From Cellulomonas sp. URHE0023 (lineage in GTDB: Bacteria; Actinomycetota; Actinomycetes; Actinomycetales; Cellulomonadaceae), in contig NZ_JIAN01000010.1 of assembly GCF_000688475.1 (NCBI RefSeq), positions 62,001 to 126,000 on the forward strand: 64,000 nt of DNA, read 5' to 3'. The notes below the pieces were generated by a model. That model searched no databases and had not been told where the DNA came from. It was given only the letters and a program-made list of their open reading frames with translations. Of this stretch, positions 1,557 to 9,583 are shown piece by piece (the stretch's first letter is position 1; every line of letters begins with the position of its first letter). Position numbers and translations under genes: made by a program.

Positions 1557-2684
1557 ATGACTGCTCGCCCCGCGCACCGCGCGCGCCGCCTCGCCGCCAC
1601 CCTCACAGCCCTGCTCACCGCGGGTGTCCTCACCTCTCTCGCGGCGTGCTCTGCCGACAGCGGAGCCGCCGCAGAACCGTCCGCGACGGCGTCGGACGAC
1701 GCGCCCGCAACACTTGCCGAGGCCGACGAGCTGCGTCTCGGCTACTTCGCCAACGTCACGCACGCGATCCCCGTGATCGGCGTCGAGGACGGCACCTACC
1801 AGGAGACTCTCGGCGACACGAAGCTGACGACCGAGATCTTCAACGCCGGACCGGCGGCCGTCGAGGCGCTGTTCGGCGGCGCGATCGACGCCGCCTACGT
1901 GGGCCCGAACCCCGCGATCAACGCGTTCTCGAAGTCGGACGGCAAGGCGATCCGGATCGTCTCGGGCGCGACCTCGGGCGGCGCACAGCTCGTCGTGGTC
2001 GACGCCATCACGAGCCCGGCGGACCTCAAGGGCAAGACCCTCGCCACGCCGCAGCTCGGCAACACCCAGGACGTCGCGCTGCGCGCCTGGCTCGCCGACG
2101 AGGACCTGACCAGCTCGCTCACCGGCGCCGCATCCGACGTCAACGTCGTGCCGCAGGAGAACTCGCAGACGCTCGACGCCTTCAAGGCCGGCCAGGTCGA
2201 CGGCGCGTGGCTCCCCGAGCCGTGGGCGTCGCGACTGGTCGACGCGGGGGCGCACGTGCTGGTCGACGAGAAGGACCTGTGGCCGGACGGCGACTTCGTC
2301 ACCACCCAGCTCATCGTCTCCACCGACTTCCTCGACAAGTACCCCGGCACCGTCAAGAAGCTCATCGAGGCGGAGTACGCCACCAACGAGTGGATCACGG
2401 CGAACCCGGACGAGGCCAAGACGGCCGTCAACACGAACATCGAGAAGCTGACGGGCAAGCCCCTCGCAGACGGCGTGCTCGACCGGGCGTGGGACAACCT
2501 GCGCCTCACGCTCGACCCGATCGCCTCGAGCCTGCAGACGTCGGCGGACCACGCCGTCGCCGTGGGAACGTCCAAGAAGACGGACCTCACGGGCATCTAC
2601 GACCTCGCGCTGCTCAACCAGGTGCTCGAGGCCAACGGACAGGAACCGGCCGACGACGCCGGGTTGGGAGCTGGCGGGAAGTGA
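1557..2684 (+). CDS. ssuA: ABC transporter substrate-binding lipoprotein, aliphatic sulfonate/taurine type (SsuA-like)
   Basis: Extracytoplasmic solute receptor of 375 aa for an organosulfur importer. The ATG at 1557 has AAGGA six bases upstream. Residues 1-31 form a twin-Arg-rich lipoprotein signal with lipobox LAAC, so Cys31 should be lipidated. The rest is an NMT1/SsuA-type periplasmic fold: RLGYFANVTHA opens the first lobe, and AAYVGPNPAIN and LPEPWASRLV are characteristic stretches. It overlaps ssuB by GTGA. Nitrate, sulfonate and taurine receptors share this fold; the Cys-rich leader and the nearby flavin monooxygenases argue for a sulfur substrate rather than nitrate or thiamine precursors. 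The exact ligand cannot be read from sequence. Confidence 0.85.
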   Translation: MTARPAHRARRLAATLTALLTAGVLTSLAACSADSGAAAEPSATASDDAPATLAEADELRLGYFANVTHAIPVIGVEDGTYQETLGDTKLTTEIFNAGPAAVEALFGGAIDAAYVGPNPAINAFSKSDGKAIRIVSGATSGGAQLVVVDAITSPADLKGKTLATPQLGNTQDVALRAWLADEDLTSSLTGAASDVNVVPQENSQTLDAFKAGQVDGAWLPEPWASRLVDAGAHVLVDEKDLWPDGDFVTTQLIVSTDFLDKYPGTVKKLIEAEYATNEWITANPDEAKTAVNTNIEKLTGKPLADGVLDRAWDNLRLTLDPIASSLQTSADHAVAVGTSKKTDLTGIYDLALLNQVLEANGQEPADDAGLGAGGK

Positions 2685-3472
2685 CCACCACCGCGACGGC
2701 GGCCGGCGGCCCGGGCATCGACGCCCCGGCCGCTGTTGCGGCGCGCCTCACCGACGTCACCCAGCACTTCGGTGAGGCCTCGCGCCCGCCCGTGCTCGAG
2801 CACATCGACCTGACGGTCCAGCCCGGCGAGTTCGTCTGCCTGCTCGGCGCCTCAGGGTGCGGCAAGTCGACCCTCCTGTCCCTGGTCGCCGGGCTCGACA
2901 AGCCCGTCTCGGGTCAGGTCGACGTGCCCGGTGGCCGACCGGCGCTCATGTTCCAGGAGCCGGCGCTCTACCCGTGGCTCTCCGCGGGCGCCAACGTCGA
3001 GCTCGCCCTGCGTCTGCGCGGCGTGCCGCGCAAGGAGCGCAAGGCCGAGGCCCAGCGGCTTCTGTCGCTCGTCCGGCTCGACGGCGCCGCTCCGAAGCGC
3101 GTCCACGAGCTCTCCGGTGGCATGCGCCAGCGCGTCGCACTGGCCCGTGCGCTCGCGCAGGAAGGCGACCTGCTGCTCATGGACGAGCCGTTCGCGGCTC
3201 TCGACGCGATCACCCGCGACGTCCTGCACGAGGAGCTCACCCGCATCTGGTCGGAGACCGGACGCGCCGTGATCTTCGTGACCCACAACGTCCGGGAGGC
3301 GGTGCGGCTCGGTCAGCGCGTCGTCCTGCTGTCGTCGCGACCCGGACGGGTGGTGCGCGAGTGGCGCATCGACATCCCGCAGCCGCGTCGCATCGAGGAC
3401 GCCGACGTGTCCGCGCTCAGTGCCGAGATCACGGAGCACCTGCGTGAGGAGATCGCCCGCCATGGCCACTGA
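2681..3472 (+). CDS. ssuB: ABC transporter ATP-binding protein, sulfonate type (SsuB-like)
   Basis: Cytoplasmic ATPase (263 aa) that powers the SsuABC importer. The start is the GTG at 2681, overlapping the ssuA stop (GTGA), with GGGAG about ten bases upstream. Walker A is GASGCGKST, the Q-loop is FQEPALYPW, the signature is LSGGMRQRVALARAL, Walker B is LLLMDEPFAALD, and the H-loop is VTHNVREA. These are the usual SsuB/NrtD/TauB features. The last 11 bases overlap ssuC, so all three genes should be translated together. Confidence 0.88.
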   Translation: MTTTATAAGGPGIDAPAAVAARLTDVTQHFGEASRPPVLEHIDLTVQPGEFVCLLGASGCGKSTLLSLVAGLDKPVSGQVDVPGGRPALMFQEPALYPWLSAGANVELALRLRGVPRKERKAEAQRLLSLVRLDGAAPKRVHELSGGMRQRVALARALAQEGDLLLMDEPFAALDAITRDVLHEELTRIWSETGRAVIFVTHNVREAVRLGQRVVLLSSRPGRVVREWRIDIPQPRRIEDADVSALSAEITEHLREEIARHGH

Positions 3473-4382
3473 GACCAGCACCCCCGCCGCACCGGCGGTC
3501 CACGGCCGCCCGTCGGACAGCGCACTTGCCGCCGGGCTCGATGCGCTCGAGACGCCGATCGTCAACCCGCGCCCCTCGTTCGCCGTGTCCGTGTGGCGCT
3601 CGGCGTGGCCCGTGCTCGCCGCCCTCGCTGCGCTCGTCGTCGTCTGGCAGGTCGCGTACACGCTCGAGCTGAAGCCGCCCTACGCGCTGCCGAGCCCCGC
3701 CGACACCTGGCAGACGTTCGTCTCGACCGTCCAGGACGGGACCGCCTGGCTTGCCATGAGCACGAGCGTGCGCCGCGCGGCCGTCGGGTTCGTGCTGTCG
3801 GTCGTCGTGGGTGTCGCGATCGGCACGGCGCTCGCTGCGTCGCAGCTGTTGCGCCGTGCGTTCGGACCCATCATCACCGGACTGCAGTCCCTGCCGTCGG
3901 TGGCCTGGGTGCCCGCAGCGGTCATCTGGTTCGGCCTGACGGACGCCACGATGTACGCGGTCGTCCTGCTCGGTGCGGTGCCGTCGATCGTCAACGGCCT
4001 GCTCACGGGCACCGACCAGGTACCGCCCTTGTTCCTGCGCGTCGGTCAGGTGCTCGGGGCCCGCGGCTGGACCCGGATCCGGTACGTGCTCCTCCCGGCG
4101 GCGCTCCCTGGCTTCCTCGGAGGCCTCAAGCAGGGCTGGGCGTTCGCGTGGCGCTCGCTCATGGCTGCCGAGCTCATCACCGTGGCCATCGGCGGTGGCC
4201 TCGGCCAGCTGCTGGACACCGGCCGGAGCCTCAACGACATGTCCTTGGTGATCGTGTCGATCTTCCTCATCTTCCTGGTCGGCATCGCGATCGAGCTGAT
4301 CGTCTTCTCGCCCCTCGAGCGCGCGGTGCTCCACTCGCGCGGCCTGACGGGTCAGACATCGAGCACGGGCCGCCGCAAGTAG
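3462..4382 (+). CDS. ssuC: ABC transporter permease, sulfonate type (SsuC-like)
   Basis: Inner-membrane permease of 306 aa. An ATG inside the ssuB end (3462) with GAGGAG upstream is preferred over the longer reading, because the first residues of the longer version are only ssuB read in another frame. About six membrane segments follow a soluble N-terminus of about 45 residues. The coupling (EAA) loop is visible as GARGWTRIRYVLLPAALPG, which docks onto SsuB. The gene ends the ssuABC operon; no ssuD or flavin reductase follows. Confidence 0.87.
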   Translation: MATETSTPAAPAVHGRPSDSALAAGLDALETPIVNPRPSFAVSVWRSAWPVLAALAALVVVWQVAYTLELKPPYALPSPADTWQTFVSTVQDGTAWLAMSTSVRRAAVGFVLSVVVGVAIGTALAASQLLRRAFGPIITGLQSLPSVAWVPAAVIWFGLTDATMYAVVLLGAVPSIVNGLLTGTDQVPPLFLRVGQVLGARGWTRIRYVLLPAALPGFLGGLKQGWAFAWRSLMAAELITVAIGGGLGQLLDTGRSLNDMSLVIVSIFLIFLVGIAIELIVFSPLERAVLHSRGLTGQTSSTGRRK

Positions 4383-4437: not shown

Positions 4438-5265
4438 GTGACCACCCGCGATGCGATCTGGACCCAGGCACATCTGAGACTCGCCGGCCACGACGTCTTC
4501 TACCGACGTAGCCCCGACGTCGAGGGCGGCATCCCGATCGTGCACGTCCACGGGTTCGGGATCTCCGGCTCGTACCTCATGCCGACGGCCCGGCTGCTGA
4601 CCGACAGGGGCGCCAACCTGGTGCCCGACCTGCCGGGCTACGGCCGGAGCGAGCGCTGGGACCGCACCCTGGGCATCCCTGCGCTCGCGCACGCCCTGCT
4701 GGAGATCCTCGACATCCTGGGGTTCGAGAAGGTCATCCTCGTGGGGAACTCTCTGGGATCGGTCATCAGCCTCGAGGTCGCGCACGCGGCGCGCGAGCGC
4801 GTGCACCGGCTCGTGCTCGTCTCCCCCGCCGGTGGCCAGCACAACCAGCCGCTGCGGCGCGCTCTGATGCAGCTCGCGACGGACGGCATCCGCGAGAGTC
4901 CGCAGATGGCGCGCGTCGCCGTGCCGGACTACCTGAAGTTCGGCCCGATCAACACGCTGAACCTCCTCTCCGAGCTCACGCGGTTCCCCTCGCTCGAGCG
5001 GCTCCTGCGGGTGCAGGTGCCCTCGCTCGCGGTCATCGGCTCCAAGGACCCGCTCATGCCGGCCCCGCCCCGGGTCCGGGAGGTCGGCACGAGCGCCCCC
5101 GACCACGTCACCGTCGTGCTCATCGAGGGCGCCGCCCACGCGATCAACTTCAGCCACCCGGGCGAGCTCGCGCACGTGATCACGTCGTGGTTGGACGACA
5201 AGGAGATCGTGGACGACCCCGACCAGCCGGGTTTGACGCGGGTGCTGCGGCTGCCGCGCGGCTGA
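4438..5265 (+). CDS. Alpha/beta-fold hydrolase downstream of ssuC
   Basis: Predicted cytosolic serine hydrolase of 275 aa starting at GTG 4438. The oxyanion segment is HVHGFGISG, the nucleophile elbow is VGNSLGS, the acid is in VIGSKDPLM, and the catalytic His is in GAAHAINFS, giving a complete Ser-Asp-His triad. It lies 55 bases after ssuC on the same strand and ends exactly where the opposing esterase gene ends. A CACCAT box six bases before the GTG hints at a separate leaderless transcript. The substrate is unknown; proximity to sulfur-scavenging genes suggests, but does not prove, action on an organosulfur ester or a monooxygenase product. Confidence 0.8.
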   Translation: MTTRDAIWTQAHLRLAGHDVFYRRSPDVEGGIPIVHVHGFGISGSYLMPTARLLTDRGANLVPDLPGYGRSERWDRTLGIPALAHALLEILDILGFEKVILVGNSLGSVISLEVAHAARERVHRLVLVSPAGGQHNQPLRRALMQLATDGIRESPQMARVAVPDYLKFGPINTLNLLSELTRFPSLERLLRVQVPSLAVIGSKDPLMPAPPRVREVGTSAPDHVTVVLIEGAAHAINFSHPGELAHVITSWLDDKEIVDDPDQPGLTRVLRLPRG

Positions 5266-5272
5266 TCAGCCG
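5259..5272. terminator. Perfect palindrome spanning two convergent stop codons
   Basis: CGGCTGATCAGCCG is perfectly self-complementary and its centre TGATCA contains both stop codons, TGA of the plus-strand hydrolase and TGA of the minus-strand esterase. It could form a short hairpin in either transcript and act as a weak bidirectional end signal. There is no T-run. Confidence 0.35.
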
Positions 5273-5979
5273 GTCAGCCGCTCCAGCAGGAGCGCCCGGA
5301 GCTGCGGGTCTGCGAGGGGTCTGAAGTGCCCGGGGGTCTGCAGCACGACGTCCTGCGCACCGTCCAGGTGGCTGCCGGCCGGGATGTGCGGGTCCCAGAA
5401 CGCGTGCGCCGACGTGATCCGGTGGTTGACCTCGACCTCCGCGGCCAGGGCCACGATCGTGGCGTCGGACGGGACGAACGCCCGGACGGACCGCATCGGG
5501 ATCCAGCGCGCGTAGACCGAACCCGAGAACGGCGTGTTGACGGCCACCATCGAGGAGATCCGGCCCTGCGGGTCGTGCTCCAGCATGGCGAGCTTCCCGA
5601 CGAGACCGCCCTTGCTGTGCGCGACCAGCACGACGTCGCGCAGGTCGTGCTCCTCGAGGAACTCGGAGAGCACCCGCGCGGTGTCGGGGACGGGTCGTCG
5701 GTTGTAGCCGAGCGTCGGCACGGCGTACACCCGCACACCGTGCGCGTAGAGCATCTCGGCGACCGGTCGCAGGAACTGCCAGGGCTCCCACACGCCCGGC
5801 ACGAGCACGACGGGCGGGCCGACCGGCTGCTCAGGCTCGAGGTAGTCGTCCGAACCACGGGGGCTGCCCGCCTGCCAGCGCAGCACGCTGGCGTAGTCCC
5901 GGACCCGCCACCACAGGTGACGCACCGCCCCGGGGGCTGGTGGCGCGTCGGCGTCCGGCATGCGGCCATAGTGCCGCAT
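5266..5979 (-). CDS. Esterase/lipase-like alpha/beta hydrolase, last gene of the SAM-riboswitch operon
   Basis: Predicted hydrolase of 237 aa. The ATG at 5979 is chosen because GGAGG lies six bases upstream; an internal ATG at 5961 and a longer frame to 6090 are alternatives without a ribosome site. VVLVPGVWEPWQFL resembles the oxyanion region of triacylglycerol lipases, and LVAHSKGGLVG is the nucleophile elbow with Ser in HSKGG, a form seen in lipases and PGAP1-like hydrolases. A late His (TPGHFRPL) may complete the triad. It starts 16 bases after the upstream monooxygenase stop, so the two genes form one operon. No signal peptide is seen. The substrate is unknown. Confidence 0.75.
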   Translation of the reverse strand: MRHYGRMPDADAPPAPGAVRHLWWRVRDYASVLRWQAGSPRGSDDYLEPEQPVGPPVVLVPGVWEPWQFLRPVAEMLYAHGVRVYAVPTLGYNRRPVPDTARVLSEFLEEHDLRDVVLVAHSKGGLVGKLAMLEHDPQGRISSMVAVNTPFSGSVYARWIPMRSVRAFVPSDATIVALAAEVEVNHRITSAHAFWDPHIPAGSHLDGAQDVVLQTPGHFRPLADPQLRALLLERLTG

Positions 5980-5995: not shown

Positions 5996-7357
5996 TCAGA
6001 CTCGTGCAGGCTCTCGCACGCGGACGGGCACCGGCAGACCGAGGTTGTCGCGCAGCGTCGTCCCGGTGTAGTCCGCCCGGAGCGAACCACGCTCCTGAAG
6101 CAGCGGAACGACCTTGTCGACGAACTCGTCGAGCCCGGTGGGGACGAGGTGCGAGCCGACGATGAACCCGTCGGACCCGTCGTCCTGCACGAAGTCGTCG
6201 ATCTGGTCGGCCACCTGCTGCGCCGTCCCCACGAACTCGGCCCGCGTGTACTGGTCGATCACGACCTCACGGGCGGACAGGCGCTTCTCGGCCGCCACCG
6301 CGCGCAGCCGCTCGGCCCAGACCAGCAGGTCGGACTCGAGCCGGGCACGGCCCTGGATGAACGGCGGTGCGTCGACGTCCGGATCGAACGACGGCAGCGG
6401 GCCGTCAGGGTCGAAGTCGGACAGGTCGCGGTTCCAGACCAGCTCGAGGAGTACGCGCGCGGTCTGCGGGGTGACCTGCTGCTCCCGCACCCAGACCGCC
6501 TTCTCCTGCGCCTCGGCCTCGGTGTCTGCGAGCACGAACGACCCGCTGGGCAGGAGCTTGACGTCCTGGGGTCGGCGCCCGAACGCGACCGCCCGCCGTT
6601 TGATGTCGGCGTAGTACGCCTTGGCCTCCGGCAGGTGCGTGAACGGCGAGAAGATCGCGTCCGAGTTGGCAGCGGCAAAGTCCCGGCCCTGAGGCGAGAC
6701 GCCGGCCTGCAGGATCACCGGCTGCCCCTGCGGCGACCGCGGGACGGTGAACCGTCCGTGGACGTCGAACTGGGGCCCGGCGTGCCGGAACGCCCCGACG
6801 TCGCCCGAGCGCACGAACTGCCCGGTCGCCTTGTCAGCCACGATCTCGTCGTCGGCCCACGAGTCCCACAGCTCGCGGACCAGGGCCAGCGACTCCGCCG
6901 CCCGCTCGTACCGCGCCGACCGGTCGAGGAAGCCGCCGCGGCGGAAGTTCTGGCCCGTGAACGCATCGAACGACGTCACGATGTTCCAGGCCGCACGTCC
7001 TCCTGACAGATGGTCCAGGGACGCCAGCTGACGGGCGAGCTCATACGGCTCGTTGAAGGTCGCGTTGATCGTCCCGGCGAGTCCGAGGTGATCGGTCACC
7101 GCCGCGAGCGATGCGAGCACCGTGAACGTGTCCGGCCGGCCGATGATGTCCTGGTCGAAGATCTGCCCGCCGCGCTCCCGCAGTGCGAGCCCCTCGGCAA
7201 GGAAGAAGAAGTCGAACTTGCCGCGTTCGGCGGTCCTCGCCGTGTGCTCGAAGCTCGAGAACTCGATCTGGCTGCCCGACTCGGGCAGGCCCCACAGCGT
7301 GTGGTGGTTCACCCCGCCCAGGTAGGCACCGAGGATGATCTGCTTGCGTGTCGTCAT
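5996..7357 (-). CDS. LLM-class FMN-dependent monooxygenase, NtaA/SnaA/DszA type (first copy)
   Basis: Flavin-dependent monooxygenase of 453 aa that would use reduced FMN supplied by a separate reductase. It opens MTTRKQIILGAYL and contains NHHTLW, the NtaA-family core FDFFFLAEGLALR, and SGGRAAWNIVTSFD with the FMN-binding NIVTS stretch. PVILQAGVSPQGRDFAA is another family signature. Relatives oxidise nitrilotriacetate, dibenzothiophene sulfone, dimethyl sulfide or long-chain alkanes. Location beside ssuABC and behind a SAM riboswitch points to desulfonation or sulfone cleavage, an inference from context. It starts 16 bases after the second copy and precedes the esterase gene. Confidence 0.88.
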   Translation of the reverse strand: MTTRKQIILGAYLGGVNHHTLWGLPESGSQIEFSSFEHTARTAERGKFDFFFLAEGLALRERGGQIFDQDIIGRPDTFTVLASLAAVTDHLGLAGTINATFNEPYELARQLASLDHLSGGRAAWNIVTSFDAFTGQNFRRGGFLDRSARYERAAESLALVRELWDSWADDEIVADKATGQFVRSGDVGAFRHAGPQFDVHGRFTVPRSPQGQPVILQAGVSPQGRDFAAANSDAIFSPFTHLPEAKAYYADIKRRAVAFGRRPQDVKLLPSGSFVLADTEAEAQEKAVWVREQQVTPQTARVLLELVWNRDLSDFDPDGPLPSFDPDVDAPPFIQGRARLESDLLVWAERLRAVAAEKRLSAREVVIDQYTRAEFVGTAQQVADQIDDFVQDDGSDGFIVGSHLVPTGLDEFVDKVVPLLQERGSLRADYTGTTLRDNLGLPVPVRVREPARV

Positions 7358-7373: not shown

Positions 7374-8585
7374 TCAGCGGGCTGTCGCGTAGCGGTTGGG
7401 CACGTCGGTCGGCAGGCCGATCAGGCCTCGCAACGAGCCGGCGTCGTAGGCGGGGCGTGTCAGACCACGCCGCCGCAGCTCGGGGGCGAGGTCCCGGGCG
7501 ATCAGGGCCAGGTCGTCGGGCAGCGTCGCGGGCCGCAGCCGCACGCCCGCGTAGCCGAGCTCGTGCCACGCAGCGATCTGGTCCGCGACGACGGACGCGC
7601 TGCCCGCCACCACCACGGCGTCCGTGAACCACGGCTCACCGGTCGCCGCGTCGAGCCGGGCCTTGCGATCGGCACCAGCCTCCTGCGGCGTGTCGAGCAC
7701 GACCACGAGGTCGGCCCACACCTGCAGCGGCAACCCCGGGCGCCCGACGCGTTCCTCCGCGTCGCGCACCTCCCTCAGCGTCGCCACGGCACCCTCGTCG
7801 TCGTGCGGTGTCACGAAGACGAGGTCCGCGGCACGCGCGGCCAGCTCGTACGGGATCCGGGAGTGTGCCAGCACGGTGACCACAGGCTGTCCCTGCGGCG
7901 GTCGGGGTGTGATGGACGGACCTCGGACGGAGAACCGCGCACCCTGGAACTCGACGTGGTGCAGCTTGTCGCGGTCGATGAACCGGCCCGTGCCCACGTC
8001 CCGGATCTCCGCATCGTCCTCCCAGCTGTCCCAGAGCCGGCGGACCACCTCCACCACGTCGGCCGCCTCGTCGAACGTCTCGCTGACGTGCGGTGCGATG
8101 GCGGGGTCGTCGAGGTCGATGGGCGGGGCGAAGCTCGGGAACTCGCGACGACCGAACAGGTCCGCCTGGGAGGCTCCGGCGGACACGCGCACCTGCCAGC
8201 CGGCCCGACCGTGACTCGTGTGGTCCAGCGTCGCCAACGCCTTCGAGACGTGGAAGGGCTCGGTGTGCGTGACCGTCACGACCGGCACCAGGCCGATGCC
8301 CCTGGTGACGGGTGCGAGCCTCGCGGCGACGAGCTCGGCATCGAGGCGGCCCCGGACCTGGTCGGTGCGGTCGTCGGGGCCTTCGAACCGGGATGACTGC
8401 AACGCGAAGGTGTCCTCGATCGTGACGAGGTCGGCCACCGCCTCCTGAGCGGTGTGGACCAGGTCGGCCCAGTATCCGGCGGTGAACAGGTCGCCCGGTC
8501 GGGCGTGCGGCTCGCGCCAGGCCGCGGGGTGCCAGCCCGCGCCGTCGAGGGCGATCGCGAGGTGGAGACGGGCAGTGTCGGACAT
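7374..8585 (-). CDS. LLM-class flavin-dependent monooxygenase, first gene of the SAM-riboswitch operon
   Basis: Second luciferase-like monooxygenase, 403 aa, distant from its neighbour. The start at 8585 follows GGAGAGG and gives the N-terminus MSDTARLHLAIALDG; the frame stays open further upstream but only through the riboswitch leader. Family features include LVTIEDTFAL, ALATLDHTSHGRAGWQVRVS (the flavin-binding strand, with QVRVS replacing NIVTS) and VADQIAAWHELGYAGVRL near the end. Function in sulfur scavenging is inferred from the leader RNA and neighbours. The two LLM proteins may be separate enzymes for different substrates or successive steps. Confidence 0.86.
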   Translation of the reverse strand: MSDTARLHLAIALDGAGWHPAAWREPHARPGDLFTAGYWADLVHTAQEAVADLVTIEDTFALQSSRFEGPDDRTDQVRGRLDAELVAARLAPVTRGIGLVPVVTVTHTEPFHVSKALATLDHTSHGRAGWQVRVSAGASQADLFGRREFPSFAPPIDLDDPAIAPHVSETFDEAADVVEVVRRLWDSWEDDAEIRDVGTGRFIDRDKLHHVEFQGARFSVRGPSITPRPPQGQPVVTVLAHSRIPYELAARAADLVFVTPHDDEGAVATLREVRDAEERVGRPGLPLQVWADLVVVLDTPQEAGADRKARLDAATGEPWFTDAVVVAGSASVVADQIAAWHELGYAGVRLRPATLPDDLALIARDLAPELRRRGLTRPAYDAGSLRGLIGLPTDVPNRYATAR

Positions 8586-8618
8586 GGAGACGACCTCTCC
8601 GGGACGCTCGGGCGCCCC
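8586..8618 (-). promoter_or_regulatory. Tandem hairpins covering the ribosome-binding site (riboswitch expression platform)
   Basis: Two adjacent perfect hairpins abut the monooxygenase ATG. The first, 8618-8601 in minus orientation, is a 7-bp stem, GGGGCGC/GCGTCCC with a CCGA loop (one G-U pair). The second, 8600-8586, pairs GGAGA with TCTCC and takes up most of the Shine-Dalgarno GGAGAGG. This arrangement suggests translational control by SAM rather than transcription termination, since no T-run is present. The pairing is read directly; the switching role is inferred. Confidence 0.5.
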
Positions 8619-8643
8619 GCATCGCGCTTGCCGGACGAGAACC

Positions 8644-8735
8644 GCCCGGCCAGGTCTGCACCTGGAGGCACCCACCGTGCGGAGGGGTTGCCGACCGGCG
8701 AGCCAGGGCCCTCGCGCCGGTCTCGTGACCTTGGC
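8644..8735 (-). ncRNA. SAM-IV-type (SAM-I/IV clan) riboswitch
   Basis: In minus orientation the leader contains GGTCACGAG at its start, then a stem closed over GGCCCTGGC, GTCGGCAACCCCTCCGCAC, GGTGGGTGCCTCCAGGTG and a closing GACCTGGCC. These blocks occur in the order and spacing of the actinobacterial SAM-IV / SAM-I-IV-variant aptamers: the CGGCAACCC core strand, the GGGTGCC strand and the GACC-tail that pairs with the initial GGTC. It lies about 60 bases before the first LLM monooxygenase gene and directly after a promoter. The role is to shut off organosulfur oxidation genes when S-adenosylmethionine is plentiful. Assignment to SAM-IV versus the I/IV variant needs a covariance search. Confidence 0.8.
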
Positions 8736-8739
8736 GCGG

Positions 8740-8767
8740 AAAGTAGCAGCGAGTCTGGCGTGTGCAA
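8740..8767 (-). promoter_or_regulatory. Promoter of the riboswitch-monooxygenase operon
   Basis: In minus orientation TTGCAC (8767-8762) and TACTTT (8745-8740) are separated by 16 bases, a good vegetative sigma-factor match. The predicted transcription start, near 8733, falls at the first bases of the aptamer, so the transcript begins with the riboswitch. Confidence 0.6.
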
Positions 8768-8940
8768 GGTCCCCGGCACGACGTCTCGTCCATCGGACAC
8801 GCCCGTGTCCTGCCGTTCGACATGCCCGCCCCGGAGGACGTCCACGCAGGCCTCCTACCAGGCCGGACCCTGTCATCGGCGGCCGGCTGACCTCCGGAGG
8901 GCCGCTCCCGAACGGATGAATGTGCCACCCGGACGAAGTC

Positions 8941-8969
8941 TCACAATTCGTCCGAACTGCGGCTAAGGT
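8941..8969 (+). promoter_or_regulatory. Candidate promoter for the DUF6325-SHOCT gene set
   Basis: TCACAA (8941-8946), 17 bases, then TAAGGT (8964-8969). The -10 fits TANNNT; the -35 is weak. It would give a leader of about 150 bases before the gene at 9125. The stretch 8768-8940 shows no gene or other structure I can support. Confidence 0.35.
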
Positions 8970-9124
8970 CGCAATGACGCACCACCTCATCCACGGCGGG
9001 TGAGGCGGGCGGGTACGTCGGCATCGTCCGATCCGGGCGAGGCTTGCGGGCACGCCTGGCACCGGTGGGTCGACCCCGGGCGACGAGCGCGCCCGGCAGA
9101 GAGCGCGACGAAAGGACTGCCCCC

Positions 9125-9583
9125 ATGACCGACGAACTTGCCGGCTCGGCCAGCCTCGATGAGACCGGCCCCATCGACTACCTGGTCGTGGAGTTCCCCG
9201 GCAGCAAGTTCAACGGCGAAGCGTTCCCCCTGCTCCTGGACCTGGTGGACCAGGGTCTGATCCGGATCCTCGACCTCGTGTTCATCTCCAAGGACGAGGA
9301 CGGCAACGTCGGCGCCCTGACGCTGGACCAGCTCGACGGGGGCGGGTTCGACCTGACGATCTTCTCGGGCGTCCAGTCCGGCCTGATCGGTGACGACGAC
9401 ATCACCGAGGCCGGTGTGGCGCTCGAGCCGGGCAGCGCCGCGGGAGTGCTCGTCTACGAGAACGTCTGGGCCGCGCCGTTCGCTGCCGCGCTGCGCCGCA
9501 CCGGCGGCCAGCTCGTCGCCAGCGGCCGCATCCCCGTCCAGGCGCTTCTCGCGTCCCTGGACGCCCTCGACACCCTCGAGTGA
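9125..9583 (+). CDS. DUF6325-like (DUF1269-related) conserved protein
   Basis: Acidic protein of 152 aa with AAAGGA upstream of ATG 9125. The start of the conserved domain, GPIDYLVVEFPGSKFNGEA, and the Gly/Ala-rich ending GSAAGVLVYENVWAAPFAAA match a family of small actinobacterial proteins (DUF6325/DUF1269 group) whose function is not known. No membrane helix is strong enough to call. It precedes a SHOCT-domain gene, a pairing often seen for this family. I cannot assign a role. Confidence 0.7.
   Translation: MTDELAGSASLDETGPIDYLVVEFPGSKFNGEAFPLLLDLVDQGLIRILDLVFISKDEDGNVGALTLDQLDGGGFDLTIFSGVQSGLIGDDDITEAGVALEPGSAAGVLVYENVWAAPFAAALRRTGGQLVASGRIPVQALLASLDALDTLE

Follow-up and report, generated by a model that had tools for sequence, protein, structure and literature searches.

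A SAM-IV riboswitch probably turns down an organosulfur-scavenging operon of Cellulomonas sp. URHE0023 when SAM is plentiful, as judged from sequence. The window (the whole 64-kb stretch of DNA analysed) was searched in its entirety against 4227 Rfam families (cmscan, Rfam 15), and it gave a single match at the gathering threshold. This match was to SAM-IV (RF00634), on the minus strand at 8730-8619, with 71.3 bits against a cut-off of 38 and an E-value of 1.2e-10, and was full length, covering model positions 1-116 of 116. The initial annotation had placed a SAM-IV element on this strand in front of an operon and had proposed an Infernal search against Rfam as a check. The search, when run, gave this significant covariance-model match and confirmed the element. 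The interval given earlier, 8644-8735, overlapped the aptamer (8619-8730), but it started 5 nt too far upstream and missed the last 25 nt, with the PK-2 tail and the 3' side of the P5 hairpin.

The aptamer comprises P1, P2a/b, PK-1, P3, P5 and the PK-2 tail. In the covariance-model alignment the helices P1, P2, P3 and P5 were all present, and non-standard pairing was marked solely at the loop end of P5, a helix drawn from this alignment alone and lying outside the covariation count. PK-1 had all five of its pairs, one of them carrying a compensatory change from C-G to U-A. PK-2 formed three of five standard pairs in the usual register, and four of five in the copy at the orthologous locus of a related genome (G019). 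By eye, an alternative PK-2 of 7 bp, in a shifted register with the tail, can be drawn as well; it would compete with the leader hairpin. The pocket residues numbered for SAM-IV in the consulted part of PMC6890682 are 2-4, 7-8, 63-65 and 77, a list without the counterparts of SAM-I 44-47. When the numbered positions were mapped by eye on the Rfam consensus, the window letters GUC, GA, UGC and A equalled the consensus. Position 73, before P1 and nearly invariant as A, was C in the window copy and in the G019 copy; among 43 SAM-IVs, it was A in 39, C in two and G in two. We infer that SAM is the ligand of the window aptamer.

Covariation was counted in these 43 SAM-IVs, which included the window copy, with the structure drawn on one member (L034) and relatedness not removed. 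Paired cells amounted to 94.2%, versus 31-49% in slid structures, and 107 double-sided changes were observed versus a mean of 33 in shuffles. The double-sided changes fell in P1, P2a, P3, PK-1 and PK-2, and P2b showed one-sided changes only. PK-1 was paired in 97.2% of the cells and PK-2 in 80.8%. The number of pair types was less striking, being reached by 59 of 500 shuffles. The MAFFT alignment misplaced a gap in P2/P3 of the window and G019 rows, and the covariance-model alignment was used there.

Compared with the G019 locus, 103 of the 112 aptamer columns were identical (92%), versus 88 of 177 positions (50%) in the DNA upstream of the aptamer, and 50% (229 sites) and 52% (237 sites) at the fourfold sites of the two monooxygenase genes of the operon. 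The leader was identical at 23 of 33 positions, and the proteins of the two loci were 85% identical. The excess of identity in the aptamer over the upstream DNA and the fourfold sites indicated that it is under strong selection. The E-value, the double-sided changes and the conservation above the surroundings together argued that the match was not due to chance.

Behind the aptamer lie three genes of the minus strand, separated by gaps of 16 nt (LLM1-LLM2 and LLM2-hydrolase). The first, LLM1 (7374..8585), encodes a 403-aa luciferase-like flavin monooxygenase (PF00296, 2.2e-25). The second, LLM2 (5996..7357), encodes a 453-aa FMN-dependent monooxygenase of the NtaA/DmoA family (TIGR03860), and the third (5266..5979) a 237-aa alpha/beta hydrolase (PF00561, 5.1e-06, 26.8 bits against a cut-off of 25.8). 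Gene calls and Pfam bore out the earlier description of two flavin monooxygenases and an esterase downstream. Neither an acetyltransferase, nor a flavin reductase, nor an N-acetylcysteine deacetylase was found by Pfam among the three genes.

Against TIGR03860 (NtaA/DmoA), LLM2 scored 409.6 bits, above the curated cut-off of 279.7, but LLM1 scored 241.1 bits, below it, and is counted as a fold relative outside the family. Among solved structures, YtnJ/MoxC (CmoJ in the PDB) came nearest to LLM2, with 304 bits, ahead of BdsA (257) and NTA monooxygenase (255). For LLM1 these three were nearly tied by sequence: NTA monooxygenase 124, YtnJ 121 and BdsA 116 bits. An AlphaFold2 model of LLM1 (mean pLDDT 78.8) matched BdsA, HcbA1, YtnJ and other LLM oxygenases in Foldseek, with BdsA first. 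The initial annotation had spoken of an NtaA/DszA-type desulfurisation operon. With respect to the NtaA/DmoA cut-off this stood for LLM2 but not for LLM1, and since the nearest solved relative of LLM2 is YtnJ/CmoJ rather than BdsA, desulfurisation of the DszA type is one option among several.

The operon is faced by a convergent ABC importer of the SsuA-SsuB-SsuC type on the plus strand (1557..4382; TIGR01728, PF00005, PF00528), which is not under the window riboswitch and had no Rfam match of its own at the gathering threshold. Its SsuA-type gene scored 185 bits with TIGR01728, over the cut-off of 163.5, and the SsuB and SsuC genes were matched by PF00005 and PF00528, respectively. A second alpha/beta hydrolase gene (4438..5265, plus strand; PF00561, 3.5e-22) follows the importer genes.

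The end of the aptamer lies 33-34 nt from the start codon of LLM1 (8585), and the intervening DNA (8586..8618, minus strand) is the probable expression platform. It holds a 7-bp tetraloop hairpin (8618-8601), followed by a Shine-Dalgarno-like GGAGAGG (8600-8594). A possible GGAGA/TCTCC hairpin, drawn by eye at 8600-8586, overlaps the latter. A 7-bp tetraloop hairpin was likewise predicted at the matching place of the orthologous G019 leader, with its sequence changed. No sigma-70 promoter was found in 8200-9200 by a scan that covers actinomycete promoters poorly. The predicted fold of the leader did not stand out from those of its shuffled versions (z -0.58), 50 of 200 of which did as well. 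By folding, the mean openness of the AGAGGU/AGAGGA hexamer was 0.21 with the aptamer free and 0.07 with it occupied in the window leader, and 0.30 and 0.27, respectively, in the G019 leader. Prediction of the switch in this way was abandoned, as the openness of the Shine-Dalgarno sequence with versus without the aptamer was inconsistent over 17 leaders. Folding gave no clean switch and decides neither for nor against the mechanism proposed here, which is drawn from the short distance and the shared hairpin.

SAM riboswitches of the SAM-IV clan are generally OFF switches. In the proposed mechanism, bound SAM would lock P1, PK-1 and PK-2. With GGAGAGG 18 nt past the aptamer and the 7-bp hairpin filling the gap, the locked form would probably keep the ribosome off GGAGAGG and the AUG. 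A drop in SAM, at sulfur shortage, would then allow LLM1, LLM2 and the hydrolase to be translated. Both the OFF direction and the translational mechanism are presumptive.

Control by the window aptamer is likelier to be translational than by attenuation, because only 33 nt separate the aptamer from the AUG and no terminator-like site or intrinsic terminator was found in 8200-9200. Transcription attenuation has some precedent: a premature transcript at the SAM-IV leader of S. clavuligerus, in the consulted part of PMC8269248, suggests that it occurs for other members of the class, and among the 21 SAM-IVs whose first gene is an LLM gene, 18 have the called start codon 212-528 nt from the aptamer. 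For the window leader we regard it as rather unlikely. It is improbable that the aptamer has begun to decay or has lost its response to SAM, as a relic or a form of altered specificity. Such a state would fit its score, the lowest of the four SAM-IVs in the genome, the A73C change and the weakened register of PK-2. On the other hand, the 92% identity of the aptamer to the G019 copy against 50% upstream speaks for maintenance, as do the intact PK-1 with its compensatory change and the intact pocket residues listed by the numbering in the consulted part of PMC6890682. A73C itself is common to the G019 copy and thus appears to have been kept, which counts against decay. We give hardly any credence to a third reading, that the aptamer-like stretch is protein-coding. 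The frame of LLM1 is indeed open upstream (a 562-aa ORF, 7374-9062), with no stop for 171 codons before the ATG in the window and for 105 in G019, but long open frames are common on both strands of this G+C-rich DNA. The G019 gene start was called at the same ATG (starts of more distant homologues vary), conservation falls to 50% upstream of the aptamer, and the RNA model was matched over its full length.

The 4.2-Mb genome contains four SAM-IVs, all over the cut-off, among which the window copy scored lowest (71 bits versus 82-114). One (C5:588374) precedes a SufS-like class V aminotransferase-fold enzyme, another (C6:701542) a peptide-type ABC importer and then an LLM pair, and another (C5:758593) an operon in which an LLM gene is accompanied by a GNAT acetyltransferase, an importer of the amino-acid type and a gene resembling FAD oxidases. 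LLM oxygenases are thus found in three of the four operons, and the SufS-like enzyme in the fourth. Not every gene of these types is under SAM-IV, since another LLM1-LLM2 pair (C5:592-595 kb; L267:6181-8635), adjoined by DUF1684 and GNAT genes, lacks a SAM-IV, and none is within reach of two other NtaA-type genes that score above the cut-off (C6:752-760 kb). Two genes of the PAPS-reductase family (PF01507) lie side by side in the genome, from which it follows that the organism can probably use sulfate too.

In 58 genomes of the genus and the order, its own included, SAM-IV was found in 47, with 117 copies. The operons behind them contained a SufS-like gene in 40 cases, an LLM oxygenase in 29 (as the first gene in 21) and MetY/MetX as the first gene in 10, with other types fewer. 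In these counts, six SAM-IVs with no called gene were kept in the denominator and seven sequence duplicates were counted. To delimit operons, genes were called by codon usage, the first had to lie within 650 nt, and the run was followed under a 200-nt gap rule for no more than 6 kb downstream. A simple GC3-based gene finder was tried and set aside, as it missed the LLM1 of the window. Within the genus, LLM operons followed 25 of 87 SAM-IVs, and longer stretches added at least two, the C6 operon of the same genome and one in G013.

Seen from the enzyme, 19 of these genomes contained 22 LLM1 homologues (E at most 1e-40), of which 17 lay 33-1309 nt downstream of a SAM-IV on the same strand and five had no SAM-IV upstream. 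The binomial figure for this linkage, about 2e-49, ignores common descent and is not usable as a probability. The suggestion of the initial annotation that SAM-IV control extends to genes of probable organosulfur oxidation was supported, with the link between SAM-IV and LLM genes recurring in the genus.

The partners of the LLM genes varied. Where the window operon has its hydrolase, the orthologous pair of G019 has a GNAT gene, and a peptide-type importer begins 269 nt further on. Other operons contained GNAT acetyltransferases, FMN reductases, importers of the amino-acid and peptide types, and SsuD-like, MsnO8-like and CE1758-like oxygenases. In four genomes (G017, G025, G032 and G007) one SAM-IV appeared to head a long same-strand run. 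That of G017 consisted of an LLM pair, a peptide-type importer, DUF1684, GNAT, an amino-acid-type importer and a FAD oxidase, followed by LLM genes of the MsnO8-family, SsuD-like and CE1758-like types. The peptide-type importer was lacking in G007, and no GNAT was called in G025 and G007; a stretch of 1.9 kb in the G025 run lay outside the reading. At L271, L276, L277 and L270, a single SAM-IV is followed by a very long same-strand gene run that includes several different LLM oxygenases together with one or two ABC importers.

Several other arrangements were observed in the course of this survey. Divergent SAM-IVs stand back to back, 81 to 234 nt apart, at L113, L116, L105, L121, L110 and L138, and at L201:2403-2712, between two divergent operons with sulfur-type genes. 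A SAM-IV precedes CysD at L087 (G057:C20:237966) and an SfnB/DszC-like oxidoreductase at L115 (G042:C1:252661), which places the class on sulfate activation and on another type of organosulfur oxygenase, respectively. In a genome of the same order, a 90-bit SAM-IV (L102; G049:C76:4909-5014) precedes nif-like genes: NifH-like (over the cut-off), NifB-, NifD/E- and NifK/BchB-like. These presumably recall the nitrogenase-like methylthio-alkane reductase of sulfur salvage.

A wider scan, with one genome per species, found at least 590 stretches holding LLM1 relatives, of which the best 80 (52-66% identical) were taken. By record title, 79 of the 80 were actinobacterial and one was labelled Melainabacteria. 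LLM2 was directly adjacent, downstream or upstream, in 77 of these best 80 loci (76 by the coordinate rule and L245, outside the rule). It was not adjacent at L175, L182 and L208, the contig of L175 ending there. This adjacency points to LLM1 and LLM2 as partners, perhaps two subunits. No homologue of the operon hydrolase was found in the examined flanks of the same best 80 loci.

A SAM aptamer headed the operon of the pair in three of these best 80 of at least 590 loci, with up to 3 kb upstream examined, a span in which longer operons could be missed. In Ornithinimicrobium cavernae, SAM-IV is followed by LLM1, LLM2, two flavin reductases and a binding protein, and in Blastococcus by a SufS-like gene, DUF1684, LLM1 and LLM2. 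In Pseudonocardia KRD291, a SAM-I aptamer precedes LLM1, LLM2 and a binding protein, and a divergent SAM-IV precedes a SufS-like gene. The SAM-IV and SAM-I of the last locus (L245:1502-1852) stand back to back, one for each divergent operon. A SAM aptamer was nearby without heading the pair at L184 (opposite strand) and L177 (downstream). The strongest independent indication that LLM1-LLM2 has its place in sulfur metabolism is that aptamers of two classes have been recruited to it. SAM control of the pair is lineage-specific, as the remaining 77 of the best 80 loci had no heading aptamer in the upstream span examined. A wide SAM-IV/LLM regulon across the phylum was considered and found unsupported: besides the three headed loci, SAM-IV was present in nine of 100 phylum genomes, a count made with stricter filters in which the nine include this genome and three relatives of its order.

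Because SAM-IV heads the oxygenase pair and the pairing recurs in related bacteria, LLM1 and LLM2 probably release sulfur from organic compounds at sulfur shortage. The two flavin monooxygenases would be fed FMNH2 by a reductase encoded elsewhere and would oxidatively cleave the C-S bonds of an imported organosulfur compound, and the freed sulfur would enter cysteine and methionine synthesis. Chances are about even for a broader proposal, that the SAM riboswitches of this lineage run a dedicated organosulfur-oxidation regulon and that LLM1 and LLM2 form a conserved C-S monooxygenase of two subunits (LuxAB-like), its sulfur role marked independently by SAM-IV and SAM-I. The genes behind one aptamer of this regulon could number about 15, all on the same strand, and would comprise several different LLM oxygenases, an acetyltransferase and two importers.

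In B. subtilis, the ytn, yha and scm clusters free cysteine from S-alkylcysteines with an acetyltransferase, an FMN monooxygenase and a deacetylase, according to the consulted part of PMC12757645. The GNAT genes found next to the pair in relatives agree with this scheme; the SsuABC importer that neighbors the window operon is in keeping with sulfonates. We place a compound like an S-alkylcysteine or N-acyl-S-alkylcysteine slightly ahead, with a sulfonate or sulfone second. It is possible, if somewhat doubtful, that the aptamer is genuine but the operon serves SsuD/DszA-like desulfurisation of sulfonates or sulfones taken up by the convergent importer, and not salvage of S-alkylcysteines. The SsuA-family binding protein next door, the first place of BdsA among the structural matches of LLM1, and the SsuD-like and SfnB/DszC-like genes (below curated cut-offs) behind SAM-IVs of relatives are all in its favor. 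The convergent orientation of the importer, with no Rfam match of its own, argues against it, as do the closer relation of LLM2 to YtnJ than to BdsA and the GNAT and peptide-type importer that follow the pair in G019.

Among known systems, the Ssu alkanesulfonate system resembles the window locus in the convergent SsuABC-type importer and in the SsuD-like gene behind SAM-IVs of relatives. It differs in that neither LLM protein of the window is SsuD (LLM2 scored 45 bits against a cut-off of 518) and the importer lies outside the control of the window riboswitch. To DszA/BdsA and NTA monooxygenase (TIGR03860), the likeness is that LLM2 exceeds the family cut-off and LLM1 shares the fold; the differences are that LLM1, with 403 aa, stays below the cut-off and that no DszB- or DszC-like gene is among the three of the operon. 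The clusters of CmoJ/YtnJ and ScmK (YxeK) in B. subtilis, as far as described in the consulted part of PMC12757645, have the FMN-dependent LLM oxygenase in common with the window operon, and GNATs and importers in common with related SAM-IV operons of this lineage. The window operon differs from them in its tandem LLM genes, the lack of an acetyltransferase and the SAM riboswitch ahead.

Actinomycetes possess many LLM flavin monooxygenases, and for a good number of these enzymes no substrate is known. A SAM riboswitch before the conserved LLM pair would tie the pair to sulfur supply, and suggests that SAM-IV controls the release of organic sulfur, beyond methionine and cysteine synthesis. The SAM-IV targets named in the consulted parts of the literature are O-acetylhomoserine sulfhydrylase in M. 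avium (PMC3774663), cysteine desulfurase in S. lividans (PMC8079986), a class V aminotransferase-fold enzyme in S. clavuligerus (PMC8269248) and cg1478 in C. glutamicum (PMC3890552). No SAM-IV with an LLM monooxygenase target turned up in the literature searched; the gene list of Weinberg 2008, outside this search, may name one. The riboswitch class is thus a known one, and the LLM type of target looks undescribed within the literature searched. In comparison with the published SAM-IVs, as far as the consulted parts describe them, the window copy is alike in the full-length model match, PK-1, the pocket letters and the position in the 5' leader, but differs by A73C, the weakened register of PK-2 and its target, an LLM monooxygenase operon.
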